A stretch of DNA of 64,000 nucleotides from NCBI RefSeq assembly GCF_000002425.4, contig NC_037259.1:5361481-5425480 (forward strand), written 5' to 3'. Below are positions 1,641-34,121 of this stretch, in pieces. This DNA comes from Physcomitrium patens. Lineage: Eukaryota; Streptophyta; Bryopsida; Funariales; Funariaceae. Under the pieces are notes generated by a model. That model made no database searches. It saw only the letters and a list, made by a program, of their open reading frames with translations, and was not told the origin of the DNA. A program made the position numbers and the translations under genes. Every line of letters begins with the position of its first letter. Position 1 is the stretch's first letter.

Positions 1641-1854
1641 AATTAAATTAGAGGAAGGTAATCTGCAACGTCTAATATCAAATGAAAATATTCACAAAAA
1701 AAGACAATCCACTTTCTTTTAGAAAAAGATTAATATTGGAAAATAAAATTATTTATTTAAAGATAGTTTTATAATCTTCAAAATACAACAATAGAAGTGA
1801 GATAATCCACTTCTAAAATAAGACAAAAATAATAAGTTAGTACTCTTATCAAAC

Positions 1855-12655: not shown

Positions 12656-12732
12656 TGTCATGGACATACATTGGAAGATTCTTCGAATATTCTTTTAGAA
12701 TATTCTCTAAAGATTCTCTAAAGATTCCTTTA

Positions 12733-12816
12733 GAAGGTTCTAGAAGATTCTTAGAATATTCCCTAAAGATTCTCTTAGAAGGTTCTAGAATATTCTTAGA
12801 AGGTTCTAGAATATTC
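12733..12816 (+). promoter_or_regulatory. Heat-shock-element arrays in the L7 LTR
   Basis: Perfect alternating nGAAn/nTTCn pentamers: GAAggTTCtaGAAgaTTC at 12733-12750, then GAA...TTC runs at 12778-12795 and 12799-12816, four pentamers each. They lie 105-190 bp upstream of the LTR TATA box, the position of an upstream activator. Plant heat-shock factors bind such trimer or longer arrays. Activity is inferred, not shown. Confidence 0.75.
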
Positions 12817-12920
12817 TGATAGATTCTAGGAAGTTGCTTGAGAAGTTTCCTAATTAGTAGAAGTTGTTGGAGAAGCGTCCTAGTTAGCGGAAGTAGCTCG
12901 AGAAGCTTCCTATTCAGTAG

Positions 12921-12928
12921 TATATATA
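12921..12928 (+). promoter_or_regulatory. TATA box of the L7 5' LTR
   Basis: tatatata, conserved in the 3' LTR (18638-18645) and, as related sequences, in L4 and L5. The predicted RNA start is about 30 bp downstream, at the AGTCTCGACAA 11-mer. Confidence 0.75.
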
Positions 12929-13090
12929 GGAGTCGAGGCTGAAGGGTTCTTCAGTCTCGACAACACATCTCTTGGAGTTCTAGCTCACCTTTCTGGTGTT
13001 GTTCTTGTACTCATCTGTTTAATCTAGTTTTGCCACTTCTTCTTAAACTTCTTCTTAGATTTCAAGTCTCTATTTTGTGTCCGTGACAGT

Positions 13091-13101
13091 TTGTCGAGAC
13101 T
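13091..13101 (+). other. L7 candidate self-priming site
   Basis: TTGTCGAGACT, two bases after the LTR end, is the exact reverse complement of AGTCTCGACAA at 12953-12963, where the transcript should begin. This is the Tf1/sushi-type arrangement, in which the RNA 5' end folds back as primer. A 12-nt match to the plant initiator-tRNA-Met site (TGGTATCAGAGC) follows at 13112-13123, so tRNA priming from an offset site is the alternative. Confidence 0.65.
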
Positions 13102-13111
13102 ACATTTTCAC

Positions 13112-13123
13112 TGGTATCAGAGC
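13112..13123 (+). other. tRNA-iMet-like motif in the L7 leader
   Basis: TGGTATCAGAGC, the usual plant LTR-element primer site, but 23 bases away from the LTR rather than next to it. The core TATCAGAGC is kept at the same place in L4 and L5. Confidence 0.6.
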
Positions 13124-13391
13124 TAGTTCCTTCTTGTTAGAGAGTGGATTACCCCTCTTCTTGAAGGTGTGCTAGTGTTTTAGAGGTTGCGGATTACCCT
13201 CTTCTAAACTGATATCTCTTCTTTCTCAATATTGGAGCCTTATTCTTCTTGGAGAGAGTGGATTACCCCTCATCTTGGAGTCTTAAGGCGTTTTAGAGGT
13301 TGCGGAGTACCCTCCTCTGAACCAATATTGTCCTCTTGTCAAAACTCTTTTTTCTTCTTTTTGAAGGTTAGCCGAAGGTTAAGACGTTAAA

Positions 13392-14393
13392 ATGGCTGTA
13401 AGTTTGGAATCCAAACTAGACGCCATCATAAATGCTCTTGCCTCGTTGTCACATAGGACAACAGAGATCGAAGGAGTCATGGTAGGACTCCATAACAATG
13501 GAGCATCTGGAATAGCGCCATCTAAAGTATATCAGCCTCAAACTTCTGCGCCAGAAGAAGCAGTTCTACCTCCATTTCAACAAGATCGAGTAGTCCTACA
13601 ACGAAAAGAGCCTCGAGTTAGTCTTCCGGATAAGTTTGATGGAACTCGTTCCAAGTTTCGAGGTTTTGTCAACCAAATCAGGTTGATAACAATTTTACAG
13701 CCCGAACGTTATCCGACGGAGGAAGCGCGTGTTGGGCTTGTTGGAACCTTGCTTACAGCACAAGCTCTGTCTTGGTTTACTCCCTTGTTTGAGAAGCGAT
13801 CGCCAATCCTGACCAACTTTGAAACGTTCTTGGAGGCGTTTGCAGAAGCATTTGGCGAGCATGATAAAGTTCGATGGGCTACAACAAAGATCCGATCGCT
13901 ACGACAAGGAACACGCTCTGCATCAGTCTATGCCTCGGATTTCAGACAATTGGCAAGTAACATTAATTGGGGTGAAGAGGCGTTGGTGAGTCAGTTTTAT
14001 TGGGGCTTGAAGGATGATGTGAAGGACTTGCTGTTATCTCTTCCTGATCCTCAAACGCTCAACGAAGCTATTAGCCAAGTTGTAAAGTGTGACAACCGCC
14101 TATTCCAGCGTCGCCAAGACCAACGTCCAAGACACCAAATGACTCGTTACGACATGACTATGTCTGCAAATAGCTTAAACTCACATTCGGAGGCAACAGA
14201 CATGCAAATCGACACTGCGCGTGTCCGATCTCTTACTCCAACAGAGAAGAAACGGCGTATGGAGGAAGGGTTATGTTTGTATTGTGGAGAAGAAGGTCAC
14301 AAGGTTGGAAATTGCCCAAAGAAGCAAAATTGGCACCCTGTCAAGACTAGAAGTGCGATGATTCCGGAAAACGACGATGCCCAGCCACAGTAG
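13392..14393 (+). CDS. L7 gag protein
   Basis: 333 residues. It begins MAVSLESKLDAIINALASLS, a helical N-terminus. The retrotransposon gag domain spans roughly residues 75-240, with EKFDGTRSKF-like text (DKFDGTRSKFRGFVNQIRL). A CCHC zinc knuckle (CLYCGEEGHKVGNC) lies near residues 295-308. It would form the virus-like particle shell and bind element RNA. Pol follows at once in a different frame, and the pol frame is open across the gag end. This start is chosen because the homologous L5 gag starts at the equivalent place. Confidence 0.9.
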   Translation: MAVSLESKLDAIINALASLSHRTTEIEGVMVGLHNNGASGIAPSKVYQPQTSAPEEAVLPPFQQDRVVLQRKEPRVSLPDKFDGTRSKFRGFVNQIRLITILQPERYPTEEARVGLVGTLLTAQALSWFTPLFEKRSPILTNFETFLEAFAEAFGEHDKVRWATTKIRSLRQGTRSASVYASDFRQLASNINWGEEALVSQFYWGLKDDVKDLLLSLPDPQTLNEAISQVVKCDNRLFQRRQDQRPRHQMTRYDMTMSANSLNSHSEATDMQIDTARVRSLTPTEKKRRMEEGLCLYCGEEGHKVGNCPKKQNWHPVKTRSAMIPENDDAQPQ

Positions 14394-14398
14394 GAACC

Positions 14399-17300
14399 GT
14401 GCGGCTGAACAATCTAATATCACGACAACAATCAGGTTCCTCCTTCTCTGTCCAACCTGCCCGTTGTTTTACAATTCCTTTGTTTTTAGGCCCTCAAAAA
14501 CAAAAAACTTTAGCTTTATTGGATTCAGGGGCATCTACTTGTTTTTTAGATGAAGAGTTTGCTAAACGCCACAAGATCCGTTTAGTACAGAAGTCCAAAC
14601 CTGTTCACGTAGAGGTGATAGATGGACGACCCTTATTGTCAGGCAACGTTACCCACGAATCAGAACCTATAGAAGTGGTGTTTAAGGACCATAGTAGTCA
14701 CGTTATTTTTAATATTATTAGAACCCCATCAAGCCCTGTTATCCTTGGTCTTTCTTGGTTAGAAGATCATAATCCGTCCATTGATTGGAGGCTACGAAGG
14801 ATAACATTTCCTGAAAAAAATAATAATAAACCTGTTGGTAGAACCTACATGAAGAAATCCATGTTTATTGGAGCGAGAGCGTTCCTAAGATCGTCCAAGG
14901 AAGGCGCACCATTTGTCATTTATGCAGCTCCAACTAGCGGCGAGAATATCTCAACATCGAATATACCAGAGCAATATAGGGATTTTGAAGACGTGTTTCA
15001 GAAGAAGAACGCCGATATACTGCCGGAACATCGACCATATGATTGCGCCATAGACTTAGAGGAAGGAGCGCAACCACCTTTTGGTCCAATATACAACCTA
15101 TCGCAGACGGAGTTGGCAGAATTGCGGAAGTACATCGATGAGAATCTAGCCAAGAATTTTATTCGACATTCAAAGTCGCCAGCTGGAGCACCAATCCTAT
15201 TCGTGAAGAAAAAAGATGGCTCACTGCGGATGTGCGTGGACTACCGAGGACTCAACAAGGTGACCAAGAAAAATCGCTATCCCTTACCTTTGATCTCCGG
15301 CCTCTTAGATCAACTTGGACGTGCAAGAATTTTTATAAAGATTGATTTAAGAGGAGCCTACAACCTTGTGCGAATCAAAGAAGGAGATGAATGGAAGACA
15401 GCCTTTCGTACAAGGTATGGCCATTTTGAGTACAATGTCATGCCTTTTCGTCTTACCAATGCTCCAGCGGTCTTTCAACATATGATGAACGACATCTTTC
15501 GGGAGTACCTCGATGACTTTGTTGTCATCTATCTGGATGATATTTTGATATTTTCCAAGAATGAAGAAGAACATGAGAAGCACGTTTGTTTGGTTCTTGA
15601 AAAACTACGCGAACGAGGACTCTACGCCAAGTTGGAGAAGTGTCAATTTCACCAGAATGAGATGGAATTTTTGGGCTTCATTGCGACTACAGAGGGCTTG
15701 AAGATGGATCCAAAAAAGGTAGAAGCAATTATATCTTGGGAAGTTCCGAAGACGATTAGAGATGTTCAGTGTTTTCTTGGATTTGCTAACTTCTATCGGA
15801 TCTTCATCAAGAATTATTCTCAAGTTGCTGCACCACTCACGCGTCTAACAAGCAAAGACAAGCTCGAATGGAGATCACAAGCAGCAAAAGCATTTCAAGA
15901 TCTCAAGACGGCATTCACTACGGCTCCAATCTTGGTACACCCTGACTTTACAAAGGCTTTCTATTTAGAGACCGATGCTTCAGATTTTGCTTTGGGAGCT
16001 GTGCTTTCACAGATGGGCATAGACAAGAAGCTTCACCCAGTTGCGTTCTATTCACGAAAGTTCTCTGCTGCTGAGATCAACTACGAGATCCACGACAAAG
16101 AGCTGCTTGCTATAGTGGATGCCTTCCAAGAGTGGCGTCACTTCCTCGAAGGAGCTGCACATCCAGTGACTGTTTATACGGACCATAAGAATTTGGAGTA
16201 CTTCATGACAGCTCGAATTTTGAATCGTCGTCAAGCTCGATGGAATATGTCTCTATCACGATTTGACTTTATTATCACCTACCGCCCTGGAAAACAACAA
16301 GGATTATCTGAGGCATTATCGAGGAGATCGTATCTTGCGCCAAAGGCTGGAGAAGAAGCGTTTGATCAACAATGTACAACATTGTTGAAACCAGAAAAAT
16401 TCAGGATTTTTGCTACTGTTGCAACTATCGATGACGGCTTCCTCAGCGAGGTACGTACTGCGACCATTGAGGATTCTATAGCTCTTGACATCAAACAACG
16501 TGTCGATAATGACAAGTTTAAGGTGGAAGGAGATCTTCTGTATTTTGAGGAGCGGTTGTATATCCCAAAAGGACCAACTCGACTCCGAGTACTTCAATCT
16601 CGGCACGACTTTCCAGCTGCGGGACATTTTGGATTCAACAAGACTTTGGAGCTTATTTCACGAGATTTTTGGTGGCCCCAAATGTGGAAGGATGTGAAAG
16701 AATTTGTCCTTTCTTGTGATGTTTGTTCAAGATCCAAGATCCCTCGACATCGTCCATATGGACTTCTCCAGCCATTGCCTATTCCGCACCGACCATGGTC
16801 TTCAGTTTCTATGGACTTCATTACGGACCTACCGCCATCGAATTCATTTGACAGCATCTTTGTTGTGGTGGATCGATTTACAAAGATGGCGCATTTCGTG
16901 CCTTGCAAGAAAACATCGTCAAGTGAAGACACCGCAAGACTCTTTCTTGATAACATATATCGTTATCATGGCCTACCAGATGATATCGTGTCGGATCGAG
17001 GTACTCAGTTTGTATCCAAGTTTTGGAGGTCCCTCTTTGAGATATTGAAGGTGGATATTAAGCTCTCTTCGGCTTTTCATCCTCAAACTGATGGTCAAAC
17101 GGAGCGGGTGAATCAAGTTTTGGAGCAATATTTAGGATGCACCATCAACTATCAACAAGATGATTGGACTGCATATCTACCACTTGCTGAGTTCGCATAC
17201 AACAACACTCTTCATGCGTCAACTCAACAAACACCATTCTTCTCCAACTACGGATACCACCCCAAGCTCGATTTATTGAGTTCTTCAGTAAATAACAACC

Positions 17301-17869
17301 CAACAGCTGAAGGATTTGTGAAGCAACTATCGGAGCTTCAAGCGATGTTGAAGCTTCAATTGCAATCTGCCCAAGAGAGTTACAAGGCATCTGCAGATAA
17401 ATATCGAAATGAGGTGCCTACTTTTAAAGTTGGAAGTAAAGTATGGCTTCTTCGACGGAATATCAAGACCAAGCGGCCATGTGACAAATTGGACTATCGG
17501 AGATTAGGACCATTTGTTATCGAGAAGCAGATCAATCCGGTGGCATATCGTCTGGAGTTACCAGCTACTATGAAGGTACATCCAGTCTTTCACGTGTCTT
17601 TGTTGGAACCTTATCGAGAGTCAGCTTTTCCCCAAAGAGTACAAAGTCCGCCACCAAGTATCGAAATTGAAAACCATGAGGAATACGAGGTGGAAAAGGT
17701 ACTAGATTCACGGCGTAATAGAAGAAAATTGGAGTATTTAGTGCATTGGAGTGGATACGACATCAATGAACGAACGTGGGAGCGTGCCGAAAATCTTGCC
17801 AATGCGCCAAAAAAGGTACAAGAATTTCATCAACGATATCCTCATAAACCTAAGCCGATTCAACGATAG
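14399..17869 (+). CDS. L7 pol polyprotein with chromodomain
   Basis: About 1,156 residues. In order: retropepsin (LLDSGASTCFLDEEF, near residue 45); reverse transcriptase with the catalytic YLDD (VIYLDDILIFSK, near 375); RNase H (LETDASDFALGAVLSQ, near 522); integrase zinc finger (RHDFPAAGHFGFNK ... CDVCSRSK, near 733-780); integrase core ([41 protein letters not shown]); and a C-terminal chromodomain (KLEYLVHWSGYDINERTWER, near 1105-1130). Chromodomains of this class are thought to steer integration to methylated-histone chromatin. The given start is the first GTG of the open frame; a real initiation codon is not implied, as pol is normally made from gag by recoding. Confidence 0.93.
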   Translation: MRLNNLISRQQSGSSFSVQPARCFTIPLFLGPQKQKTLALLDSGASTCFLDEEFAKRHKIRLVQKSKPVHVEVIDGRPLLSGNVTHESEPIEVVFKDHSSHVIFNIIRTPSSPVILGLSWLEDHNPSIDWRLRRITFPEKNNNKPVGRTYMKKSMFIGARAFLRSSKEGAPFVIYAAPTSGENISTSNIPEQYRDFEDVFQKKNADILPEHRPYDCAIDLEEGAQPPFGPIYNLSQTELAELRKYIDENLAKNFIRHSKSPAGAPILFVKKKDGSLRMCVDYRGLNKVTKKNRYPLPLISGLLDQLGRARIFIKIDLRGAYNLVRIKEGDEWKTAFRTRYGHFEYNVMPFRLTNAPAVFQHMMNDIFREYLDDFVVIYLDDILIFSKNEEEHEKHVCLVLEKLRERGLYAKLEKCQFHQNEMEFLGFIATTEGLKMDPKKVEAIISWEVPKTIRDVQCFLGFANFYRIFIKNYSQVAAPLTRLTSKDKLEWRSQAAKAFQDLKTAFTTAPILVHPDFTKAFYLETDASDFALGAVLSQMGIDKKLHPVAFYSRKFSAAEINYEIHDKELLAIVDAFQEWRHFLEGAAHPVTVYTDHKNLEYFMTARILNRRQARWNMSLSRFDFIITYRPGKQQGLSEALSRRSYLAPKAGEEAFDQQCTTLLKPEKFRIFATVATIDDGFLSEVRTATIEDSIALDIKQRVDNDKFKVEGDLLYFEERLYIPKGPTRLRVLQSRHDFPAAGHFGFNKTLELISRDFWWPQMWKDVKEFVLSCDVCSRSKIPRHRPYGLLQPLPIPHRPWSSVSMDFITDLPPSNSFDSIFVVVDRFTKMAHFVPCKKTSSSEDTARLFLDNIYRYHGLPDDIVSDRGTQFVSKFWRSLFEILKVDIKLSSAFHPQTDGQTERVNQVLEQYLGCTINYQQDDWTAYLPLAEFAYNNTLHASTQQTPFFSNYGYHPKLDLLSSSVNNNPTAEGFVKQLSELQAMLKLQLQSAQESYKASADKYRNEVPTFKVGSKVWLLRRNIKTKRPCDKLDYRRLGPFVIEKQINPVAYRLELPATMKVHPVFHVSLLEPYRESAFPQRVQSPPPSIEIENHEEYEVEKVLDSRRNRRKLEYLVHWSGYDINERTWERAENLANAPKKVQEFHQRYPHKPKPIQR

Positions 17870-17995
17870 CTTCTTGCTGAAGCTTGCTCATCAAGTAGCA
17901 TAAAAAGGGAGGAGGGCACTTCCAAAACCCATAGTTCGATAGTGTAGAACTTTGTTAGCAACTATAGTTTGCTCTCATCATTTTAGCCTTTAGAC

Positions 17996-18343
17996 ATGGA
18001 TAGTCAAGATACTACACTTGTTATGTCATCTCAAGCGACTAGCTCACAAAGACGACCGCGAGATGAAGAACCGCCTACACCACGACGACGTCGGAAGATA
18101 CCGAGCAACAGATCGCTAGTAATTGTATTTGAGGTCGAGCCTGCCTACGACGGTCAGCCAGAAGGTGTGTTTGGAGGACAGTTTCACAATGAAGACACAG
18201 AAGTCCACGCTTGGTCAGAGGTTGAAGGTGTTGGTCACTACCGTTGGCTCCAAGGGCCGATGAATCATTTGCCTCGCGAACAACAATTGGAATTCATAGC
18301 GGATGTGATGCGACAGATTTTCATTTTCTTGCGTTGGTATTGA
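17996..18343 (+). CDS. L7 ORF3, conserved accessory protein of unknown function
   Basis: 115 residues, starting MDSQDTTLVMSSQATSSQRR, lying 126 bp after pol and ending 50 bp before the 3' LTR. The N-terminal third is basic and disordered (RRPRDEEPPTPRRRRK). The rest is a compact domain: NRSLVIVFEVEPAYDGQP, then GHYRWLQGPMNHLPREQQ, then a final helix-like IADVMRQIFIFLRWY. Homologues sit in the same place in L4 (7195-7548), L5 (31472 on) and, decayed, L1 (about 37750 on). It has no signal peptide or membrane segment, so it is not envelope-like. I do not recognise the family. Confidence 0.75.
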   Translation: MDSQDTTLVMSSQATSSQRRPRDEEPPTPRRRRKIPSNRSLVIVFEVEPAYDGQPEGVFGGQFHNEDTEVHAWSEVEGVGHYRWLQGPMNHLPREQQLEFIADVMRQIFIFLRWY

Positions 18344-18393
18344 CTGATAACAACATTGCTTCTCGGAGACCTCGAAGCTAGAAGAGGAGGTGA

Positions 18394-18805
18394 TGTCATG
18401 GACATACATTGGAAGATTCTTCGAATATTCTTCTAGAATATTCTCTAAAGATTCTCTAAAGATTCCTTTAGAAGGTTCTAGAAGATTCTTAGAATATTCC
18501 CTAAAGATTCTTTTAGAAGGTTCTAGAATATTCTGATAGATTCTAGGAAGTTGCTCGAGAAGTTTCCTAATTAGTAGAAGTTGTTGGAGAAGCGTCCTAG
18601 TTAGCGGAAGTAGCTCGAGAAGCTTCCTATTCAGTAGTATATATAGGAGTCGAGGCTGAAGGGTTCTTCACTCTCGACAACACATCTCTTGGAGTTCTAG
18701 CTCACCTTTCTGGTGTTATTCTTGTACTCATCTGTTTAATCTAGTTTTGCCACTTCTTCTTAAACTTCTTCTTAGATTTCAAGTCTCTATTTTGTGTCCG
18801 TGACA
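18394..18805 (+). repeat. 3' LTR of L7
   Basis: 412 bp. Preceded by the purine tract agaagaggaggtga. TATA box at 18638-18645. Heat-shock-type arrays at 18431-18443, 18471-18488 and 18516-18533. Confidence 0.95.
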
Positions 18806-18810
18806 TCAGA

Positions 18811-19211
18811 CTACATTGGGTTGCCCAACCAATGCAGGTCTCACATTAGGTAAGATGCCCGTAGTAACCAGGATGTTCCCGTAATTAGACTGCATTGGAT
18901 TGCGTGACCAATGCAGGTCTCATATTACATAAGAGGACCCGGATTGGATTCTTGAAATTGGATCCAATTGGCTCTTCGAACCAAGCTCACCCGTCGTGTG
19001 AATTGGTCATTTCTCTTCCTGCTGACTCCCGTTATTGGAATCGAATGGAGCATTTCAGTATGCCCCGGCTGACTATAATGGGGTGACTGAACCTGACCAC
19101 TCAGTATTTACACTGGAGTTGGTCGTTGCTCCCAATATTCGAGGTAACTGAACATTAATAAAAGTCCCTTTTCTTTATATTTTCACAAAATACTCGTGTT
19201 ACAACACGACA
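18811..19211 (-). repeat. 3' LTR of L6, smaller piece
   Basis: Continues the 79-bp repeats after L7 and ends gttacaacacgaca at 19211, giving a TG...CA LTR of about 1,688 bp in all. The minus-strand sequence entering it (ggcggtgga) is the likely polypurine tract. Confidence 0.75.
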
Positions 19212-19402
19212 TCCACCGCCACTGAACCTATGCATCCTCCGGTATGCACCAATTTACCCAATTGCTGTTTGATTCAAAATATATCCTCTACGTCTTTGTC
19301 ATGTTCCTCTTCATCACCTTCATTATCCAAATCACTTTCATCTTCTTGCTGCGGAATCTCTATACCTTCATTAAGGTCTTCCATATTCATCTCCGCGTCT
19401 CT

Positions 19403-22400
19403 TCATTTAAATATTTTTACTCGCTTCCCTGCAATTGGTATTTTCAATTTCGTACCATCTAACTCCCGTAATGAGTAAGTCACATTATCATGAACAGTTG
19501 TTACTACATATGGTCTAAACCAACGTTTTAAAAATTTTTGCAAAGTACTATGTTGATTATCCAGACTATTATCATAAACAAGTACCCAGTCACCTTCCTC
19601 GATTACTTTAGGTCTCAATCGATGTTGCTTATCGAATCGCGCCTTGTTTTGTAACCTTGCTCTTTTTAACCTTTTCAATGCTATCTGGACATCTTCCGAT
19701 CTTTGCTCCAATTGTCGAATTCTAATAGCCAGAAGTTCTTCTCTTGTCAATCCATCTTCCCATGGTAGCATACTCCAAGTAAGTACCTTTTCTTCAATCG
19801 GCATAATTGATTTTTCACCTGTCATAAGTTCTACTAGCATATATCATGTCACCGAACTATGTGTTGTTCGATCAGCCCATAATGCAAATGACAAAAGCCG
19901 TGGCCACTCTTTAACTTTCCCATTACAAGCTTTAACTAATGCTTTCACAATTGGTGGGTGACCGCGTTTGCTTTTTACATTCCCTTTCGGATTATAAGCA
20001 GTAGTCAGTGATAGTTTAATTCCACATCTTTCAAAGAACTTACGAGCTTCTTGTGCATTTAATTCTCCATGTTCTGCAGTGATTTTTCCTACGCATCCGT
20101 AGCGGCAAATGACATCTTCAAGCAAAAATCTACAAATCCCCTCTGTAGATTTTGTCCTCATTGATCTTCCTTCTACTTGATTTGATAAATCTTCATGAGC
20201 TAAAATCAAATATCTCATCTGCCATAACCCAACCGGCATACTGACCAAATCAACAACCCATTTAAAATAAATAGCCAGAGAATATGTAGGATGAAGGCCA
20301 TCTCGATGTCGGATATTAGAATACGATTGACAGATTTCACATGACTCTACAAATGAGAGCACATCTCGATACATATTTTTCCACCAATATCGTTCCTTGA
20401 GTTTAGCAAAAGTAGCCCAGATTCCTCTATGCCCTGCCCATAAACTATCATGAAACTCCTTTAATAATTTTAGTCTTTCTTCTTTTTTGCCTATCACTCA
20501 TTGTGGCATCCCAATTCCTTTCTTCGGTCTCTTCCATAAGAATCCATCTTGAAATAAAAATCCATATGCTTTTTTTCATATTTGTTTGAATTTTTCTGTA
20601 GACCAATTCCTCTGCTTAGTCAAGGTATTCAAGTAATGACCAATATCCAATAATTCTCCTTCATAAGATTCTTCAAGAAATAGCTTGTCTTCTCTGTTGA
20701 GATTTGATATTGAATAGAATTTCAATCCGACGTCATCAATGTCTTCTACCATTTCGTCCTCCCTCTCGTATCTTGCTCGAGATAGCATGTCTGCTACTAA
20801 ATTATCCTTCCCAGTAATATGCTTAAATTCTTGATTTAGTGACTTAATATAAGCAATCCATCTCAACATTGCAATATCTGGCGTTGAACAATTAATAATC
20901 ATTCCAAGCAATGGCAAGCAACCTGTTTCAATTACTACTACTGCCACAATCAAATAATCCTTTTCAGCTTTCATAGTCGAAACGACTCTTCAAAGTTCTC
21001 TTTTGACTTGCGAATATGCACGCTGACGAATACTTAAAACTTTAGCCTCAAACCGAACTGCAAATCTATTTCCACTGGAATCATCTTAACCCACAGTCCA
21101 CCCAATGGCAATTGGACTAGCGTCCACAGTAAGAATCACTGGTCTATTGCACTTATAATCAACCTTCCTCAATATTGGAGGTGACATCAATAATTTCTTC
21201 AATCTTTGCATTGCCTGAATATGCCTTTCTTCCCATTTAAATTGGTAACCCTTGCGTAACAGTTCATATAATGGATCCGCTATGTAAGCAAAATGAGGGA
21301 TCCAGATTCGATAAAATATACATGCACCCAAAAACCTGCGAACCTCTGTTAAAGAATCACAATCCTCTTTCATCCTTCCAATTGCATCAACTTTAGTCGG
21401 ATCTGGTTTTCTTCCATAAGATCCACATAAATGTCCAACAATTACAACCTCTCGTACTCCAAATACGGACTTCATATCCGATAATGTAAGATGAACTTCT
21501 CCAAGCCGAGTTAAAATCTTTTCACAATCTTGTATATGATCAACAACATATTTGTGACACCCCCTCGTATCTAAAGTTTCATCCTTCTCTCCTTCTCTGC
21601 ACCCTTTTATAGGAACATCATCCAGAAAAGGCATAGTTTTTTCCGAAATAAAATCTCACAATACCTTATTCATCCCATTCATCATATGCGCAACTGAGTT
21701 GGTCGCGCCTTGAGGAAGAGTGCACATTCTAACCAATCCAAGTGGTGTCCTCATTGTTGTCATATCTCTACTTCCTTCGTCAAGTTGAAATTGATCATAA
21801 CCTGAATACAAGTTACCTATTGAATAGATCGCCCTTCCAGCAAACGCCTCAGCAAATTCATCCACAATAGGTCCAATTCCTGCATTTCTGACAGTCACTA
21901 CATTCACCGGTTGCATATCTTGAATAAACCATAGTGACCCATTCTTCTTAGGTACCGTAAACCATTGACTAGAATACGGCGCAAATGAAGGTTTTAATAT
22001 TTTCATCTTTATCTTTTCTTTTAATAGTTCAACCAATTTAGGTAAATGTACCCTCGGTACTGGAATCGATCTTAGATTCCAAGGTACATGTGGTACAGTG
22101 AAGATAACCATAGGTGTTATAATATTTGGATCCACACACCCAATTTCATGAGATTCGAAGGCAAACGATCTACCTTATTTAGCCAACATCTTTTTGAAGC
22201 AAGTAATTTCCTCTGGCAATAAAGAACCATCAGAATCAATCTTCAATTCTTCAAAAGTCACTCTAGTAAACTGGTGTCCAATACTCATTGGATCTCTTAA
22301 ACTTGCTTCTTTTGATGCTTCTCCCATTTGTTCTTTAGAATCTTCTGGTAATGGTCCGGCAATAGGCTTTACCTTCTTATCTGCCATTTTATATCTCATC

Positions 22401-22513
22401 TCTACAGTGACTTCTGGTGCTTGAAAAGATTCAAGGATGGTATAAACCTCTCTTGAATGAATCTCAACAATCTTATCATTATCTCCTAACCCAATAGATG
22501 TAATCAATTCCAA
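19403..22513 (-). pseudogene. L6 RT, RNase H and integrase fossil
   Basis: RT pieces include VPKKNGSLWFIQDMQPVNVV (near 21930) and RRFLGACIFYRIWIPHFAYI (near 21340). RNase H is near 21150-20580. The integrase zinc region is CEICQSYSNIRHRDG (near 20330), and the core has DLVSMPVGLWQMRYLILAHE (near 20250) and YNPKGN. The C-terminus carries a GPY-like stretch (DELDGTKLKIPIAGKRVK type) and no chromodomain that I can see. Several breaks. Confidence 0.8.
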
Positions 22514-22749
22514 TGAATCTTCCAGTCCATTTTCTTCATAAACACCTAAAATCCTCTCTTCATCTTACAATGTACCTAACTTGCATAATTGTCCTTCAAT
22601 ATCATATAATCTTTTTCTTTCTTTTCTTTTAAAATCATCAACTTTCTTATACATAATATTTCCATTCTCCAATATACCAATAAAACTCGCATCAAAGGCA
22701 CCTTCATCTCGCGAGAGTACCTCCATCTTTATACCTCCATAATCTCGCT

Positions 22750-25100
22750 TTACAGTGGTACCTCCCCAAAATCCTTAAATCCTTCAACAATCTTTGGCAA
22801 TGGTTTCTCCCTCAACCTATCTCGATTCCGTTCATGGTTAGGAGGTACTGTTAGAAATTGTACAGCTTTCCTCCCATCTTCGCTCCGTACCCTTGCATAA
22901 GCAGAACCATCGTCAAGTACTTTTGTTTCCATCCGTGTTGCCATAATATAAGGTTGTCCTAAAATCAACGGATAAGACGTTGTATCTTGAACAAAGAAAT
23001 GTTGCTTCGTCGCAACATCCCCAATCCAAATTTTGACATCTGGACAAGCTCCATATAATTCGCCCCGTGTGTTATTAGCTTCTCGAATTGTCCATCCATG
23101 TTCCATATCAATTGGCCATTTTTGCTTCTTATAAAGATCTTTAGACATGAGATTTATTTCAGAACCATGGTCGACTAAAGTAACAATTGGTTCTTCTATA
23201 TCTCTTACTTTCACCAATACCTCAGTAGTTGCCCTTGCCCAATGCTTTCGAGTGTAATGGCTCAAAGTTTCCATTTCCTTGTCACTAAAATCTTCGAAAT
23301 GTACTCGTTGATTATACCCATTCTTTTCATTTGTTGGTTGCTTGTAACCAATATCAACCTCTTCTTCATCTCTATATATTCTTGCATCATTAGCATGACT
23401 CATTCCAGTTTCGCCCATTAATTACATCTTTAGCTTAATGCTGTCAATGATAACATCATGAAACTCCTTCTTTGCAATTCCCAAGACTTCTTTCAATGTG
23501 AATTCCACCTTAGCGTTTAATATACGTTCTTCCAACACCTCTTTCAAATTTGTTGCTGCTTCAATGTCAGAAAGTAGTTTATAAGCAATTGATTTGCCCT
23601 TATCTTTTGTCTCCTTTGTTTTTTCTCCCAATGATGCTGAGGTATCTTTTATAGGCAATTCTTGTGAAGCTGCCTCTCGAGCCTTGTCTCCTGGAGTTTG
23701 CCTCTTAAAAGAATTTCCTTCTCTAGTATCATCAAAATTTCCTCGTCTCTTTTCTTCCATCAAAGCTTCATGTTGGCTCTTAGCAATATATGCATGAACT
23801 GAAAGAGACTCAACAGGATCCTCCCAACCTGTTCTACCTCGTATTGTAGCTGCAGTCGTCAATAACGCTTCTCGAGGTAATTTCCGTTCTTGCATTGTAG
23901 AAACGGCAGAAGCCCAAAACTCACTAGTTTCCGTACTTCCACCAATTTTATCATCTACTCTAGCACCATAACTTGCACTTTCTCGTGCTGCTGTTTCATG
24001 CTCTTTTAGGTAATCTTGAATCAATGCTCTCATTCCTCCCTTGCCAAAATTGGTTTGAAGAAGATCTTCCCTATTTTTCAATGCTATCTTCCCATCTTTC
24101 TAGCAAATAATTCCCTACCGTATCATATTATTAAATTCATTGCAATCTTTTCTAGTGTGTGAAGCATCATCACACCAAATGCATCTTTGTACGTATCCTT
24201 GTTTTGAAACATTCTTCGAATTGTTTATAGAAGTATTCTCTTCAAGTCTTGCCAATTTGATTTGAAGATCTCGCATTCCTCATATAATTTCTTCCATCTC
24301 CATATCTGCTTTCTTTGATAAGGATGTCGAAGGTTGAACTGTAGGCATTGTTGGTGGTGTTGTACGTACTGGAGCTTTGGGTGCTTGTACTGTTTTCGGA
24401 ATATTGCTCCTATCCTTCTTCCTTTCTCTTTTTGTAAGCAACCCCACTGCATCTTCAACGTTCTTCTACTTTGTTGTCAATCCTTCATCTTCTTCTTTGT
24501 CTTCAAGAAGGAGTTCTAATTTCCCTTGCAATTCTCTATCAGTAGCTTGAAGAAATAGATCAACTTTGTTCGACATCAATGTTAATTTTTCTACCTTCGA
24601 CAATTGAGGATAGTGCCTCTCATATTCCCTTAGTAGCTCTGTTGCTTGCAAATTCTTATTGGGCCATTCAATCCATTCCAGAAACAGCTTCTTAGTAACC
24701 TGATTAGCATCTTCCAAGAAATATTCGTCTTTCAATACATGTGAAAAAACCTCCCATGAATTCCCATAACGATCCGTAATCGATGTAATGTGGTCTCTTA
24801 TCTTCGGTATTGTGGCAAGTCCAAATAGTGCAACCATTTTCTTCTCAAAAACCCGATTTAATTCCATTTCACGACCATAACATCTTAAATACCTTGAAAT
24901 ATTCCTCCCATCAAATTGATCAATTTTATTGACCACTGCTTGCAATGCTTTGGTTGCCAAAGCTTCCTTTCGATCATTGCTTTGCTGTTGCTACATTGAT
25001 AATGAGAAGGCTTGAAACATATTAGCAATAGACGGATCCATGTGCATACCTTGTCCTTTAGAAGAATCCTCACCAGAAACTCCTCCCAAAAATCCTTCAA
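22750..25100 (-). pseudogene. L6 gag and protease fossil
   Basis: A gag-like region (KIDQFDGRNISRYLRCYGRE near 24910) is followed by a charged linker. A retropepsin segment (VTLVDHGSEINLMSKDLYKK near 23180) ends in VILGQPYI-like text. Readable in long pieces, with several breaks. Confidence 0.75.
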
Positions 25101-25170
25101 AATTTATATTTTTGTTTTGCATAAAATAAAGATAAAATCAACCAAAATCCAATACCTTCCACCCTAAGCT

Positions 25171-25188
25171 TTCACGTCCGGTTCACCA
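25171..25188 (-). other. L6 tRNA-type primer-binding site
   Basis: On the minus strand TGGTGAACCGGACGTGAA follows the 5' LTR after four bases. The plus strand reads ttcacgtccggttcacca, shaped like a tRNA 3' end with CCA. I do not assign the tRNA species. This contrasts with the alpha and beta families. Confidence 0.6.
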
Positions 25189-25192
25189 CTTT

Positions 25193-25834
25193 TGTCATAT
25201 TACGTGCTTTTCTGCTCGAGAATGCGCCAAGCGTCTGGCTGTAGAAGGTAGTATGGAGATTCGCCAATAGTCAAGCAGTCTATCAGTTTTTGACTGCTGG
25301 AATATAAACGACTGCAAGAATACACCGTAAATCTATACGGATGCCCTTCGACTGCTTGTCGAAGTCCTTTTTGCCCCAGCCGGTAGGTCTCTAGACGTTA
25401 TAGAGAACCCCGAACAACCCAATCTGCTAATCTCCAATACTGCTTTGTACTTACGATCTTATTTCCATTGACTGTCTTGTTAGATTAACCCAATAAATTT
25501 CATTCACTCCGCATACTCAATCCTATAGACACCCTTTTAACTCTTCATCACAGACGTAACTCGATTTCACAAAATAGTCAAGAGTAATCAAACCCACTTC
25601 ATTAAAAAAATCCCGATTCACCATTACAACACTGACTTCAGCAACGATTGCCTCAGTCTTCCCAAAACTCTATGAAGAAAAAAATCCAATTCTCCATCTT
25701 TTCTTCCCCGACCTGAAGCATGAAGCTTCTCTCCAATCCCCTTGATCTTCAAAAACCTCCAAAAAAAACCGAACTAGTAACCTTGAAAAGAGCTTAAAGC
25801 TAGCTCTTCGATCCAAAAAACCCCCCTCGATCTG

Positions 25835-25865
<31 letters not shown>

Positions 25866-26480
25866 CCAAAACTTATTCTCCCCCTAACCTTATCCTCTAA
25901 ATTTCTTCAATCTTCCGTCTTGGATCCAGAATTGGTTCCCATCGTCAGAGCTTAGATCCGAAATTGGCTCCCGCCGTGAGAGCTTTCTCCTCCGTTTTTA
26001 CCTTTAAGAGATCCATTTACCAAAAACAACCTTCCTTGAAACGGCACAGAGAATAGGACAGCATGAATCAGAATCGAAACCCCGTACTCGGGTCCACATT
26101 GAGTTGCGTGACCAATTCAGGTCTCATATTGGGTAAGATGCCCGTAGTAACCTGGATGTTCCCGTACTTGGATCAAATTGGTCTTTCGCATCAGACTGGC
26201 TGAGGCCCGTAGTAAGACCTAGATTTTCCTGTAATTAGACTGCATTGAGTTGCCCGACCAATTCAGGTCTCATATTGGGTAAGATGCCCGTAATAACCTG
26301 GATGTTCCCGTAATTAGACTGTATTGGGTTGCCCGACCAATCCAGGTCTCATATTGGATAAGATGCCTGTAGTAACCTAGATGTTCCTGTAATTAGACTG
26401 CATTGGGTTGCCGGACCAATGTAGGTCTCATATTGGGTAAGATGCCCATAGTAACCTGGATGTTCCCAAACTTGGATCAA
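25193..26480 (-). repeat. 5' LTR of L6, truncated
   Basis: 1,288 bp aligning with 11369-12655 and beyond. Its far end is missing: at 26480/26481 it joins the tail of the L5 LTR directly. Confidence 0.85.
26093..26480. repeat. 79-bp tandem repeats in the L6 5' LTR
   Basis: Same repeat as at 12270-12650, about five units including the 'ggatcaaattg' variant. The deletion junction falls in the last unit. Confidence 0.9.
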
Positions 26481-26663
26481 ATTGTCAACTCCTTTTTTGC
26501 TTCTAATCTAGTTTCAAGGGTCTTTAGTTTTCTTGTCTTTTGGCAATAGCCATTCCAGTTTCTCTTTCAATATATATACTTGTTTATGTATATTTTGTTA
26601 CCTCTCTTTGAGTGAAAGCTCACTTATCTAAATTGTTTTTTCATTGAGTTCTTGTCCTTGACA
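26481..26663 (+). repeat. 5' LTR of L5, right piece
   Basis: The last ~183 bp of the LTR, matching 32318-32496. About 255 bp of LTR expected between the two pieces (the equivalent of 32063-32317) is missing, lost at the L6 right junction. Confidence 0.85.
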
Positions 26664-26665
26664 GA

Positions 26666-26676
26666 TTGACAAGAGT
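26666..26676 (+). other. L5 candidate self-priming site
   Basis: TTGACAAGAGT, two bases inside the 5' LTR end, is the exact reverse complement of ACTCTTGTCAA at 32311-32321 in the LTR. Position and length match the 11-nt primer-binding site of Tf1-type self-priming elements. A partial tRNA-Met-like motif (atatcagagc) follows about 12 nt later. Confidence 0.65.
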
Positions 26677-26876
26677 ACACCTACAATATCAGAGCTTTGT
26701 CTAATCTTGATTAAGAGTGGATTACCCCTTTTTTCTTGATAAGATATAAGTGTATTAGAAGTTGCGGATTACCCTCTTTTGAACTAATATTGTCCTTAGT
26801 ATTTTCTTTGTCCGCAAGTCCTCTCTTCTATTTGTCTTGAGCGATATTAGACATCTTCTCTCTTCTAAGTGTTATC

Positions 26877-27884
26877 ATGGCAGAACTTCTTGAAATGAAG
26901 AGTGCAATGGCACAAATGCAAGAGCGATTGAGGGAGTTAATGCTTGCAATGCATCAACTCAATTTACCACCACAAGGAGCAAGAAGATTGGCAGGAAGTG
27001 AAGATATAGAAATGGTTGGAGCTGCTTCAACATCTGCACCAAACCATGTCCTTTCTCCTATGGTGGAACGCCCTTCAAATGTTAGAGAACCAAGAATTGC
27101 CCTACCCGAGAAGTTTGATGGCACCAGATCCAAGTTTCGAGGATTTATCAATCAAGTGCAACTTGTGATTGAACTTCAACCCCAAAGCTATCCAACTCCA
27201 GGATCACAAGTTAGATTCATTAATACGCTTCTTTCAGGTTCGGCACTATCGTTGTTTTCATCTTTTCTTGAACAATGAGATCCACTATTGGATAATCTAG
27301 AGGCTTTTTTGGCGAAGTTTTGATCCATGTATGGAGAACATGATGCAATTCGTGTTCCAACCAATAAGATCTGTATTTTATGACATGGCAATCGATCAGT
27401 AACGTTATATGCTTCACAATTTTGCTAACTTGCAACTGATATCAAGTGGGATGATGCTGCACTTATTAGCCAATTTCTCTACGGATTACAATATGAGGTA
27501 AAAAAATTAATGCTCAACTTATTTGATCCTCAAACATTGAGTCAAGCAATTGACTTTGCTGTGAAGTGTGACAATCGTCTTTTTGAATTTTGATCTGAGA
27601 ACCGTACAAGTGGACCTCAACGTTACTATAATTCAATGGCAACACCAACACCTGTTCAACACATACATTCGGAAGTAGAGGATATGCAAATTGATGCAGT
27701 ACGTTTGAAACCTCTTACTGAGCAAGAAAAGACTCGTCGTCGTCAAGAAGGATTATGTTTATATTGTGGAGAACCAAAGCACACTGCTCAACATTATCCA
27801 AAGAAACGACGCAATCACAAAATGAGGAGTATGGCTGTGAAAGAAGATAATATGTCGGAAAACGAGTTTGTCCAGCTACAATAG
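26877..27884 (+). pseudogene. L5 gag fossil
   Basis: Starts MAELLEMKSAMAQMQERL. It contains the retrotransposon gag block EKFDGTRSKFRGFINQVQL and ends with a CCHC zinc knuckle (CLYCGEPKHTAQHYP) followed by the pol start in another frame. Broken a few times. Confidence 0.85.
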
Positions 27885-27889
27885 GGACC

Positions 27890-30800
27890 GTGCGGTTGGA
27901 ACCTTGCACAACATCTAGTAAAGGTCCTATTCTCTCCTCAGAGCCCTCTCCTTGTTTTACATTAAATATTATTTTAGGACCTAAACATTACAAAGTCTCT
28001 GTCTTGTTAGATTCAGGAGCCTCAGCGTGTTTTTTAGATGAAGAATTTACTAAAAGACCTAGCATATCTTTAATAAAGAAAACTAAACCTGTTCATGTAG
28101 AAGTCATAGATGGTCGTCCATTGTCTTCTGGAGATATTACTCACGAAATCCTTCCTATAGAAGAAATAATCAATGGTCATAATAGTTTTGTAGTATTTAA
28201 TATCATTAGATCTCCCTCTAATCCAATCATTTTAGGTTTATCGTGGTTAGAAAAATACAACCCTCAAATAGACTGGATTTCTCGAACTCTTACTTTCTAT
28301 AAAAGTATAACTAATAGTGTAGTTTAGCAAGTAGAGAGTCATAAGTCCAATTCAATTAAACCCGTATTTATAGGTGCAAAAGCTTTCTTGCATGCTGCTA
28401 TGCAAGAATCACCATACATTATTTATGCTACACCCGTTTCTACTGGTGAAAAGACTTCAAGTGGCATTCTAAGTCAATATCAAGAATTTCAAGATGTATT
28501 TGAAAAAAAGAATGCGGATACACTCCCGGAACATCGTCCCTATGATTGCTCAATTGACCTTCAAGAAGGAGCACAACCGCCATTCGGACCAATCTATAGT
28601 TTATCACAAAATGAGTTGGCTGAACTCAAGGAGTATATTGAAGAAAATCTAGCCAAAAATTTCATACGCCATTCTAAATCTCCGGCAGGAGCTCCAATTC
28701 TATTTGTGAAGAAAAAGATGGATCATTGTGGATGTGTGTTGACTATCGAGGACTCAACAAGATTACCATCAAAAACATGTATCCACTACCTTTAATATCC
28801 GGACTTCTTGATCAGCTGAATCAAACAAAGATCTATACAAAAATAGATCTTCGGGAAGCATACAATCTAGTACGCATTAAAAAAAGAGATGAATGGAAGA
28901 CTACGTTTCGAACTAGGTATCGATATTTTGAATACAACGTCATGCCTTTTGGACTTACAAATGCACCAGCAGCTTTTCAACATCTAATGAATGATGTTTT
29001 TTGAGAGTTTTTGGATGATTTTGTGGTCTGTTATCTAGACGACATCTTGATCTATTCCAAGAATCCAAAACAATATGAACTTCATGTTTGTCGTGTATTA
29101 CAAAAATTAAGAGATGCAGGACTCTATGCCAAGATAGAAAAGTGTGTATTCCACACTACTCAAGTCAATTTCTTAGGTTACATCATTTCAAATGATGGAC
29201 TTATGATGGATCCTAAGAAAGTTAAAACTATTATAGACTGGAAGATCCCAAAAACGATAAGAGATGTCCAATATTTTTTGCGATTTGCCAACTACTATTG
29301 GATCTTCATCAAAGACTTCTCTCGAGTTGCAGCTCAACTTACATGTTTGACTTGTAAAGATAAACTCCAATGGAATCAAAAAGCGGAAGTTGCTTTTGAA
29401 TCTTTGAAGACAGCGTTTGTTTCTGCACCAATCTTGTATCGTGTTGATTTTTCCAAAGCATTCTTTATGGAAACAGATGCATCGGACTTTGCTCTGGGTG
29501 CGGTTTTATCACAAATGAGAACAGATGATAAACTTCATCCAGTATCCTTTCATTCAAGAAAATTCTCAGCAGCAGAAATCAATTATGAGATCCACAACAA
29601 AGAACTTCTTGCAATTGTGGATTCTTTTCAAGAATGGCATCATTATCTAGAAGGCGCTTCTAGTCCAGTCACCGTGTATACGGATCACAAGAACCTCGAA
29701 TATTTTATGTCAGCACGCGTATTAAATCGTCGCCAAGCTCGTTGGAGCATATCCTTATCAAGATTCAAATTCATCATCACTTATCGGCCAGAAAAATAAC
29801 AAGGTTTATCCGATGCCTTGTCTAGACGTTCTTATCTTGCACCAAAAGAAGGAGATGCAGCTTTTGAGCAACAAAGAACGGTTTTCTTGAAGCCGGAATA
29901 ATTTTATCTTCGAGCAATAAAATCAACATTGACTATTGATTTAACTTTCCTTAAGCATGTCCAGTTAAGTATGTCTTCAAACCCTCTTATTCATGATATC
30001 AAGAATAATTCTTCTAAATCTCATGATCCATCTAAATTTGAATTCAAGAACAACCTACTCTATTTCGAAGGACGCCTATATGTTCCTAAAGGAGAAGCTC
30101 GTTTACGTGTTCTTCAAGCTCGTCACGACTTCCTAGCAGCATGACATTTTGGATATAATAAGACTTTGGAGCTGATATCTAGGGATTTTTGGTGGCTTCT
30201 AATGTGGAAGGCAGTTAAAGATTTTGTACAATCATGTGATATTTGCTCAAGATCAAAAACTCCTCGTCATCGACCTTTTGGACTTCTTCAGCCATTACCC
30301 ATTCCAGAACAACCATAGTCTTCTGTTTCTATGGACTTCATCACATATCTTCCAAGCTCAAGTTCTTATGACTCTATATTCGTGATAGTAGATCGTTTTA
30401 CCAAGATGGCACATTTTGTACCATGTACAAAATCTATCACAGGTGAAGAAACAACTAAGCTCTTTCTTGACAATATCTATCACTATCATGGATTACCCAA
30501 GGATATTATATCATATAGGGGAACTCAATTTGTATCAAGATTTTGGCGGACTCTTTTCAAGATTCTTAAAGTGGATATAAAACTATCTTCGGCATTCCAT
30601 CCTCAAATTGATGGACAAACAAAGCGTATTAATCAAGTTTTGGAGCAATATTTAAGATATACCATTAATTACTAACAAGATGATTGGACAACTCTTTTAT
30701 CATTGGCAGAGTTTGCTTACAATAACACGGTATACTCTTCTACAAAACAAACACCTTTCTTTGCTAATTATGGTTATCATCCACGACTTGATACTTTTGA

Positions 30801-31377
30801 CTTTTCAAAAGTTGATAATCCTGCTGCGAAAGATTTGGCAATTCATTTATCAGAGCTACATGCAACGATGAAGGTGAAGTTAAAAGAGGCTCAAGAACAA
30901 CAAAAGGCCAATGCGGATGTCTATCGAAAGGAACATCCATCATTCGTCTTGGGTGATAAGATATGGTTACTTTGTCATAATATCAAGACCACTCGTCCTT
31001 GTTACAAGTTGGACTATCGAAGGTTGGGACCATTTTCTATTTCTGCACAAATCAATCCAGTTGCATATCGTTTAGATCTACCAGAGTCAATGAAAATCAA
31101 TCCAGTATTCCACGTGTCTCTTCTTGAACCATACAAGACAGTGGACATACCAAGAAGACAACAAGCTCCACCTCATCCAATAGAAGTGGATAATAATGAA
31201 GAGTTTGAAGTAGAAGAAATCTTACATTCAAGGCGGCGCCGAAATAAATTAGAATATCTTGTCCATTGGCGTGGATATGGTATTAGTGAATGCACATGGG
31301 AGCCAATAAAGAATCTTGCAAATGCAGCAAAGGCGGTGGAGGCTTTTCATCGACGACATCCATCAAAATCAAGATGA
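27890..31377 (+). pseudogene. L5 pol fossil with chromodomain
   Basis: Protease (LLDSGASACFLDEEF), RT (YLDDILIYSKNPKQ), RNase H (METDASDFALGAVLSQ), integrase HHCC and core regions, and a C-terminal chromodomain (KLEYLVHWRGYGISECTWEP). Domain order matches L7 pol at 14399-17869. About eight breaks. Confidence 0.85.
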
Positions 31378-31471
31378 AAACCTTCTTTATAAAAGAAACA
31401 ACATCTAGGCAAGATAACATTCTACTTTCAATTCTTGTTCGTAGCTTCATTGTAGTAGTGGCACTCATGAG

Positions 31472-31895
31472 ATGGAGAACCAACAACCAGTGGATTCAAC
31501 TCAAGAGCCTTCATTTGCTGACCTGCCAGACGAGACATTACGATTGTCACAACCTTCAAGACAATGCAATCGAGATGAAGATCTTCAAGAACGACATGTT
31601 CTTCCTCGAATAGATGGTGAGATACAACACGTTTGGTATCATGATTTGAGAAGGGACTCCCGATGTTTGGTGATTTTGCTAGAGGTAGGAACAACTCCTA
31701 ATGGTGTTCCAAATATTCTATTCGAAGGAAGTTACGAAGGCCTCAACAATGATCAAATAACTGGGTGGTCTTCCCGCCTTGGTATGGGACACTACCGATA
31801 GTTGAGAGGCCTTATCAATCATCTTTGAAGAGAACAGAGATCAGAGTATGTGACAAATACAATTTGTCGCATCATAGATTTCCTCAACATATGAT
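31472..31895 (+). pseudogene. L5 third ORF, fossil
   Basis: Begins MENQQPVDSTQEPSFADLPD. The blocks RCLVILLEVGTTPNGVP and GMGHYR align with L7 ORF3 (NRSLVIVFEVEPAYDGQP and GVGHYR), and similarity continues to the end. It sits between pol and the 3' LTR like its relatives. Broken. Confidence 0.7.
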
Positions 31896-31935
31896 GACCG
31901 CTCCTCGTGGAACTCGTCCCTAGAAGGGGGGATAA

Positions 31936-32496
31936 TGTCATGGCCATAATCATGTAAGCTAATAATTACATATAGAAATACATAGAAGTAAGTAAAAGTA
32001 GATAAAAGTAAGTTAATTCTATAGTATTTAATATGGAAGCTTCTTAGAAACTTCCTAGACACTGCTTTGACTTCATAGGTGTCTTTAATTGACTTTTTGG
32101 ATTAGAAACGTGGTCAACAAGTTGGCTATGTGCCACACATGTTGTTAGCTTGAAGATGAAGCTAACTATGTGGCCCACACGTAGAAAAACTTGCCTTATA
32201 AGTCAAGGCATGTGCCCTACAAAGTCAACACATATTGGAGGTCCTATAGAACGTTGCCACGTAGCCCCTAGTTAGAGAGTATACATAGAGACAAGAGTGA
32301 AGGCTTCTTCACTCTTGTCAACTCCTTTCTTACTTTCAATCTAGTTTCAAGGATCTTTAGTTTTCTTGTCTTTTGGCAATAGCCATTCCAGTTTTTCTTT
32401 TAATATATATACTTGTTTATGTATATTTTGTTACCTCTCTTTGAGTGAAGGCTCACTTATCTAAATTATTTTTTCATCGAGTTCTTGTCCTTGACA
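31936..32496 (+). repeat. 3' LTR of L5
   Basis: 561 bp, TGTCATGG...CCTTGACA, preceded by a G-rich polypurine tract (agaaggggggataa). TATA-like sequence tatacata at 32280-32287. The 11-mer ACTCTTGTCAA lies at 32311-32321, 31 nt downstream of it. Confidence 0.9.
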
Positions 32497-33718
32497 AGTA
32501 GTTTTCAACTTTGTGGCCTTCTTCACCGCAATACAAGTATAGACCTTCCTCCATACGCCACTTTTTTTCTTCAAAAGTAAGGGATTTGACATGTACCGCA
32601 TCAATTTGCATGTCTTCTACCTCTGAATGTGAATTCACGCTGCTTGTCGATATAGTTAGGACGTGATAAATCGTATGTTATCTTGAACGTTGATCTTGGC
32701 GACATTGGAATAGGCGATTATCGCACTTCACATCTTGGCTAATAGCTCCATTGAGCGATCAGGAAGAATTAACACCAAATCTTTCACATTGTCCCTTAAA
32801 TCCCAATAGAATTGACTCATCAACGCTTCTTCGTCTGAATTGATGTCGTATGCTAATTGCCTGAAGTCCGATGCATAGACTGATGTAGAGCGCATCCCTT
32901 GTCATCGTGATCGGATCTTTGTTGTAGCCCATCGAACCTTATCGTGTTCACCAAATACTTTTACAAACGCCTCCAAAAAGGTTTCAAAGTTGTTCAGTAT
33001 GGACGATCGTTTCTCAAACAAAGGAGCAAACCATGATAAAGCTTGCCCTGTAAGTAAGGTTCCAACAAGCCCAACACGTGACTCCTATGTTGGATAGTGT
33101 TCAGGTTGTAAAATTGTTATCAACGTGATTTGGTTGACGAATCCTCGAAACTTGGAACGCGTACCATCGAACTTGTCCGGAAGGCTAACTCGGGACTCTT
33201 TATGCTGTAGAACCAACGGTGCTTATCGAACCTGAGGTAAAATTGCTTCTCTAAGTGCAGAAGTTTGAGGTTGGTGTAACCTAGATTGTGCCATCCCAGA
33301 TGCTCCATCATTATGAAGCCTTGCCATGACTCCTTCAATCTCTGCAGTTCTTTGCGATAACGTAGGGAGGGCATTCATGATAGCATCCAACTTGAACTCC
33401 GAACTTTCCGTCATACTAATATCTTGGCCTCTGGCCATTCTAAGAGAAGGACAAAAATGATTCTACAAGAAGACAATATTAGTTTAGAGGAGGGTACTCC
33501 GCAACCTCTAAAATGCCTTAAAAGCTTCAAGAAAAGGGATAATCCATTCTCTCTAAGAAGAATAAGACTCTAATATTGTAACAAAAGAAGTATCAGTTTA
33601 GAGGAGGGTAATCTGCAACCTCTAAAATGCTAGTACACTTCCAAGTAGAGGGATAATCCACACTCTAACGAGGAAGAAACTAGCTCTGATATCTGAGGTG
33701 AGTGCAGTCTCGACAAAC
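32497..33718 (-). pseudogene. L4 gag fossil and leader
   Basis: The continuation of L4 on the far side of L5. It opens in the zinc-knuckle sequence (reverse complement near 32530) and runs back through gag to a start region near 33438 (RGQDISMTESSEFKLDAIMNAL), matching L7 gag. The leader (33440-33718) repeats the 'gagggtaatctgcaacctct' motif also seen in the L7 leader. Broken. Confidence 0.8.
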
Positions 33719-34116: not shown

Positions 34117-34121
34117 TCATG

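Follow-up and report, generated by a model that had tools for sequence, protein, structure and literature searches.

Self-priming, in which an element starts reverse transcription from the 5′ end of its own RNA, is known from Tf1, for which a three-duplex "pretzel" has been described (PMC10085805). Neumann et al. (2019; PMC6317226) predicted self-priming for most elements of the Tcn1 clade, whose members come from mosses and clubmosses, using as criterion at least 10 bp of complementarity to the long terminal repeat (LTR), starting 0–5 bp after the LTR. In SM-Tcn1 of Selaginella, neither tRNA priming nor self-priming was found (Novikova et al., 2010). The moss Physcomitrium patens has a highly abundant, transcribed chromodomain gypsy element, RLG1, and a heat stress-induced gypsy element, RLG2 (PMC7466625); a text search of that paper found no match for primer-binding site (PBS), TATA or transcription start. 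Here we describe three LTR elements (L7, L4 and L5) in a 64,000-nt stretch of the P. patens genome (NC_037259.1, positions 5,361,481 to 5,425,480; "the window"). We conclude, with a probability of about 0.85, that all three are chromodomain Ty3/gypsy elements that would prime reverse transcription with their own RNA 5′ end, as Tf1 does. The original prediction, made from the letters of the window, had proposed this geometry as one not known to be described for moss chromoviruses; given the Tcn1-clade prediction, that statement of novelty was wrong.

Predicted self-primers, primer-binding sites and their genome copies

The 11-mers and the promoter element on which the reading rests are as follows.

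12953..12963, plus strand: L7 self-primer AGTCTCGACAA, the predicted RNA 5′ end
13091..13101, plus strand: L7 PBS TTGTCGAGACT, separated from the 5′ LTR by 2 nt (GT)
33846..33856, minus strand: L4 self-primer AGTCTCGACAA; a second copy lies at 6975-6985 in the L4 3′ LTR
33706..33716, minus strand: L4 PBS TTGTCGAGACT, with the same GT gap as in L7
26666..26676, plus strand: L5 PBS TTGACAAGAGT, 2 nt (GA) past the 5′ LTR remnant that ends at 26663
32311..32321, plus strand: L5 self-primer ACTCTTGTCAA, the copy in the 3′ LTR
12921..12926, plus strand: L7 TATATA box, 32 nt ahead of the predicted RNA start

In all three elements the complement to the LTR is 11 nt long and begins 2 nt from the 5′ LTR. 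The L7 pair is an exact complement at the predicted coordinates, and it recurs in L4, where a TATA box lies 32 nt ahead of the RNA start (33856-33846) and the PBS (33716-33706) follows at the same distance from the LTR. The L5 pair is also exact, with correct coordinates and a TATA-like box at 31 nt, but its primer partner had to be taken from the 3′ LTR because the 5′ LTR of L5 resumes only at 26482, past the start of the 11-mer; the site in its own 5′ LTR has been lost. The primer copy in the L7 3′ LTR (at 18670, ACTCTCGACAA) carries one mismatch. Complementarity within the RNA extends over exactly 11 nt, with RNA base 12 unpaired in both L7 and L5. When the LTR was shuffled with dinucleotides preserved, the first bases past the LTR found an 11-nt complement in 4 of 5000 shuffles for L7 and 1 of 5000 for L5.

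We scanned the 470.4-Mb assembly (101 contigs) for further copies. The 11-mer AGTCTCGACAA occurs 7277 times (3629 + 3648 by strand), compared with 85 (47 + 38) for the reversed control. A search for the L7 lineage that left the site itself free (CGTGACAGT N12 CA) returned 1319 matches (653 + 666; control 42 + 33), and the corresponding L5-lineage search (CCTTGACAGA N11 AC) returned 2633 (1356 + 1277; control 7 + 10). The L7-type sample comprised 90 of 100 places listed (30 loci and 60 stretches), nearly all on a single contig, C1. Four of the 90 lacked the RNA-start flanks and were dropped, and in the remaining 86 the RNA start was placed by its flanks rather than by the 11-mer. RNA start and PBS match without mismatch in 51 of these 86 copies, with one mismatch in 26, two in 6 and three in 3, so that at least 10 of 11 positions pair in 77. 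Among 30 sampled L5-type loci, pairing is full in 19, with one mismatch in 8 and two in 3 (at least 10/11 in 27).

The promoter spacing is equally persistent. The TATA box lies 32 nt from the RNA start in 82/86 L7-type copies and 31 nt in 29/30 L5-type copies, and a C-A step spans the RNA start in 82/86 and 30/30, respectively. This spacing fits a TATA-driven promoter whose transcripts would begin with the 11-mer. The self-priming geometry of the original prediction is supported by the exact pairing over 11 nt, by its place at the end of the LTR, by the TATA and initiator spacing and by persistence in the sampled genome copies. In the mechanism we propose, transcription would start at the A located 31–32 nt after the TATA box, and the first 11 nt of the RNA would pair with their complement, which begins after a 2-nt gap downstream of the 5′ LTR. 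RNase H would then cut after nucleotide 11, by analogy with Tf1. The 3′ end released in this way would be extended across the GT or GA and on into the LTR, and integrase would presumably trim the two extra bases.

A box resembling a tRNA primer site offers a different reading, in which the initiator tRNA primes and the 11-mer has some other role.

13112..13123, plus strand: TGGTATCAGAGC in L7, beginning 24 nt downstream of the LTR; of this box, L4 and L5 have only the TATCAGAGC part

In L7 this box is a 12-nt match to the sequence expected to complement the 3′ end of the plant initiator tRNA, and we counted this in favor of tRNA priming. Within the window, the leaders of L7, L4 and L5 all have the TATCAGAGC part, 10–14 nt after the PBS (13115-13123 in L7, 26687-26695 in L5 and 33691-33683, minus strand, in L4). 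It also occurs in L143-L144, which represent a fourth type of leader in the L7 lineage. However, given the distance from the LTR end, priming at TGGTATCAGAGC would carry the bases in between into the LTR. The TGG that would pair with the tRNA CCA end is missing from 22 type-2 and 34 type-3 L7-family leaders (10 of the 86 leaders are untyped, at least one of them with TGG) and from 30 L5-type leaders, and the old copy L1 has no TATCAGAGC box. The tRNA-primed chromoviruses (Tekay, CRM, Reina, Galadriel) are recognized by a site complementary to a tRNA 3′ end (TGG...) 0–5 nt after the LTR; L7, L4 and L5 have GT or GA followed by TTG... at this place. We consider tRNA priming very unlikely.

Two apparent new PBS were rejected: inspected by eye, the six loci examined (L137-L142) look like integrase coding sequence at TATCAGAGC. 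No third recurrent 11-mer appeared among the first places listed for two patterns (GAAG-4 nt-CTTC, and one with a final CAA), and the RNA-start variant ACTATTGTCAA recurs among the GAAG-4 nt-CTTC matches with final CAA. A scan of viral_contigs with the L7 reverse transcriptase returned no relatives.

A palindrome across the U3/R border

The self-primer overlaps a palindrome in both lineages.

12932..12961, plus strand: L7 palindrome across the U3/R border, 13-bp stem and 4-nt loop, GTCGAGGCTGAAG-ggtt-CTTCAGTCTCGAC
32290..32319, plus strand: L5 3′ LTR palindrome across the U3/R border, perfect over 13 bp, GACAAGAGTGAAG-gctt-CTTCACTCTTGTC

Primer nucleotides 1–9 form part of the 3′ arm of this hairpin. 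Of the 13 possible standard pairs, 12 or more are present in 71 of 86 L7-type copies (all 13 in 22) and in 29 of 30 L5-type copies (all 13 in 25). The mean number of pairs is 11.95 and 12.77, respectively, compared with 3–7 when one arm is slid by 1–6 nt, except at −6, where it is 9.53 for L7 and 7.27 for L5. Median energies are −18.9 (L7-type) and −19.8 (L5-type) kcal/mol for the hairpin, against −16.2 and −14.4 kcal/mol for the primer duplex. With AT repeats set aside, the plus strand of the window has stems of 12 or more pairs, including 11 Watson-Crick pairs, at the primer sites 2022, 12932, 18649 and 32290, and also at 49966 and 57001. The three positions at which the PBS of the two lineages differ are also those at which the arms differ, each with compensation; a further difference is one change from G-U to A-U. 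A U3/R hairpin around a self-primer is not mentioned in the passages of the literature that were covered.

The palindrome raises the question of whether the 11-mer at the RNA start matters as one arm of a palindrome, in the promoter or in the RNA, with the post-LTR match a by-product that has no priming role. The 13-bp palindrome between the TATA box and the RNA start, with an upstream arm that itself resembles the PBS, speaks for this. On the other side, the post-LTR match sits exactly at the primer position and extends beyond the palindrome, as the final AA of the primer lies outside the stem. The primer of Tf1 is also 11 nt long, which we counted against a by-product, as we did the lack of a TGG at 0–5 nt after the LTR in L7, L4 or L5. 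A by-product is in our view a highly improbable explanation, and self-priming is preferred.

If the elements self-prime, the palindrome may bear on which primer copy is used. U3 should be absent from the RNA 5′ end, so the hairpin could form only in the 3′ copy and might mask it. Less surely than the steps above, this stronger U3 hairpin could keep the 3′ primer copy off the PBS. That it acts as a lock against mispriming, hiding the 3′ copy and leaving the capped 5′ copy free for the PBS, is a tentative suggestion that we regard as rather unlikely. A role of the palindrome at the DNA level, in the promoter, is as possible as one as an RNA mask. The hairpin makes it possible to test concretely how such an element distinguishes its two primer copies.

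Covariation, base 12 and structural exceptions

The results that weigh against the self-priming reading concern covariation within each lineage, the base beyond the duplex and the structures around the primer. The original prediction had taken the two families, with different 11-mers that both pair throughout, as covariation. Between lineages this has support: only three of the 11 positions (PBS positions 4, 6 and 10) distinguish the L7 from the L5 11-mer, and 3/3 are compensated. Within lineages it fails. Among L7-type copies, both sides are modal in 50, a single side is changed in 13 and 16, and both are changed in 7, as expected if the sides change independently (Fisher p 0.39); the same holds for L5-type copies (Fisher p 0.31). 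Compensation is found in 1 of the 7 doubly changed L7-type copies and in 0 of 3 L5-type copies. Most single changes in L7-type copies are C>T or G>A (44/49), and 34/49 lie at CpG; in L5-type copies 7/15 are C>T or G>A. We thus ruled out covariation within families, and the pairing losses of the L7 lineage look like decay after insertion. In total, the covariation evidence is three compensated pairs between two lineages, with one 11-mer kept per lineage. By the mechanism known from Tf1, each round of self-priming would copy the primer sequence into the PBS; with such copying, agreement of primer and PBS needs no selection.

The second point concerns the first base past the duplex.

13102..13102, plus strand: first base past the 11-bp duplex, the most changeable of 460 columns in 86 L7-type copies

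In these copies base 12 is T in 34, A in 26, G in 22 and C in 4, partly according to leader type. On a tree built without base 12 it underwent 17 changes (mean 2.6), including 8 transversions (mean 0.67), and ranked first of 460 columns, 11 of which were fixed by the search pattern. This variability was first noticed in 30 of the 86 copies and then tested on all 86. Among disjoint nearest pairs, base 12 differs in 4/18 at a distance of at most 0.03 (rank 1) and in 11/43 of all pairs (rank 3, behind a top column with 17). In L5-type copies base 12 is not hypervariable, with A in 99 of 100 sites listed. We therefore no longer regard base 12 as a mark of self-priming in general and retain it as an oddity of the L7 lineage. 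If plus-strand strong-stop synthesis, on running off the capped primer, added a base without a template, this would account for base 12 of the L7-type copies, but not for that of the L5-type.

Structural exceptions are of several kinds. A candidate for an additional, pretzel-like duplex occurs in 53 of 63 L7-type copies with the box and in 0 of 24 L5-type copies. The best helix in L7 leaders scores 8.13, compared with 7.15 (standard deviation 1.03) in shuffled sequence, and that in L5 leaders 7.37 compared with 7.46. The hairpin has 11/13 pairs in each L4 LTR, below the threshold for a qualifying stem. A 30-copy subfamily of the L5 lineage with the U3 arm GCAAGAAAGAAG breaks the hairpin, mostly without compensation: R position 2 is C (unpaired) in 24/30 and T (paired) in 6/30, and R position 1 is A (unpaired) in 29/30. 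Where R position 4 is changed, the first 40 rows listed, which were chosen for that change and include some chance matches, show a G-U arm pair in 20, no pair in 20 and a Watson-Crick pair in none.

The nested elements and comparison with known systems

The window contains a nest of LTR elements: L5 interrupts L4, a further element splits the L5 5′ LTR, and L7 lies inside this further element.

12656-18805, plus strand: L7, with a 5-bp target-site duplication, TCAGA, at 12651-12655 and 18806-18810
12656..13088, plus strand: L7 5′ LTR (TG..CA), last bases ..GTGACA at 13088
13383..14393, plus strand: L7 gag reading frame (Pfam Retrotrans_gag)
14351..17869, plus strand: L7 pol reading frame, with protease, reverse transcriptase, RNase H, integrase, Tf2-1-like SH3 and chromodomain
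18394..18805, plus strand: L7 3′ LTR, with the changed self-primer copy at 18670-18680
33719..34116, minus strand: L4 5′ LTR; the 3′ LTR is at 6848-7144 (minus strand), with target duplication CATGA
31936..32496, plus strand: L5 3′ LTR
start near 11242-11369 and end at 26482-26663, plus strand: L5 5′ LTR, split, with the primer start lost
near 11369-12643 and 25193-26464: LTRs of the element between L5 and L7, within which L7 is nested
1842..2051, minus strand: L1, an old L5-lineage copy, with palindrome at 2051-2022, exact self-primer at 2030-2020 and PBS at 1852-1842 with one change

The Pfam Chromo domain was detected in L7 (2e-16) and L5 (2.5e-17), with SH3_Tf2-1 alongside in both. The reading frames of L5 are shorter than those of L7, and the two examined encode reverse transcriptase/RNase H and SH3/chromodomain. 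The RNA start of L1 is that of the L5 lineage, and the adjacent stretch 55-766 has 70% identity to L5.

Repeats mark several of these elements. The ~1.28-kb LTRs of the element between L5 and L7 hold a 79-nt tandem repeat (12275-12655 and 26097-26467), and the L4 5′ LTR contains a 101-bp tandem duplication (33916-34118), its 3′ LTR being ~101 nt shorter. Elsewhere in the window, a 49-bp tandem array at 47556-48022 comprises 9.6 copies with 97% matches. The L7 U3 (12656-12920, 265 nt) contains 12 GAAnnTTC motifs, compared with a window average of 0.25 per 265 nt, in an array resembling heat-shock elements; a similar array in L4 (33890-34120) has seven.

In the literature found, self-priming in land plants is a prediction. 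It was already predicted for this clade, and the present work adds counts in genome copies, the hairpin and a variable base confined to L7. The prediction is now backed by counts in two lineages of 1319 and 2633 pattern matches. RLG1 is transcribed in P. patens, a laboratory model, so self-priming in a plant is open to direct testing there. Heat induction is reported for RLG2, and L7 has heat-shock-element-like repeats in its U3; L7 and L5 could each correspond to any of RLG1, RLG2 or RLG3. L7, L4 and L5, which we take to be moss chromodomain Ty3/gypsy elements, show LTR complementarity of the length and position defined in PMC6317226; the prediction there, self-priming in most elements, was made at the level of the clade. 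Of the three duplexes of the Tf1 pretzel, only the primer duplex is established in the moss elements. They resemble Tf1 and Tf2 of Schizosaccharomyces pombe (PMC10085805) in having a self-primer, predicted to lie at the RNA start, a PBS just past the 5′ LTR and an integrase with a chromodomain.

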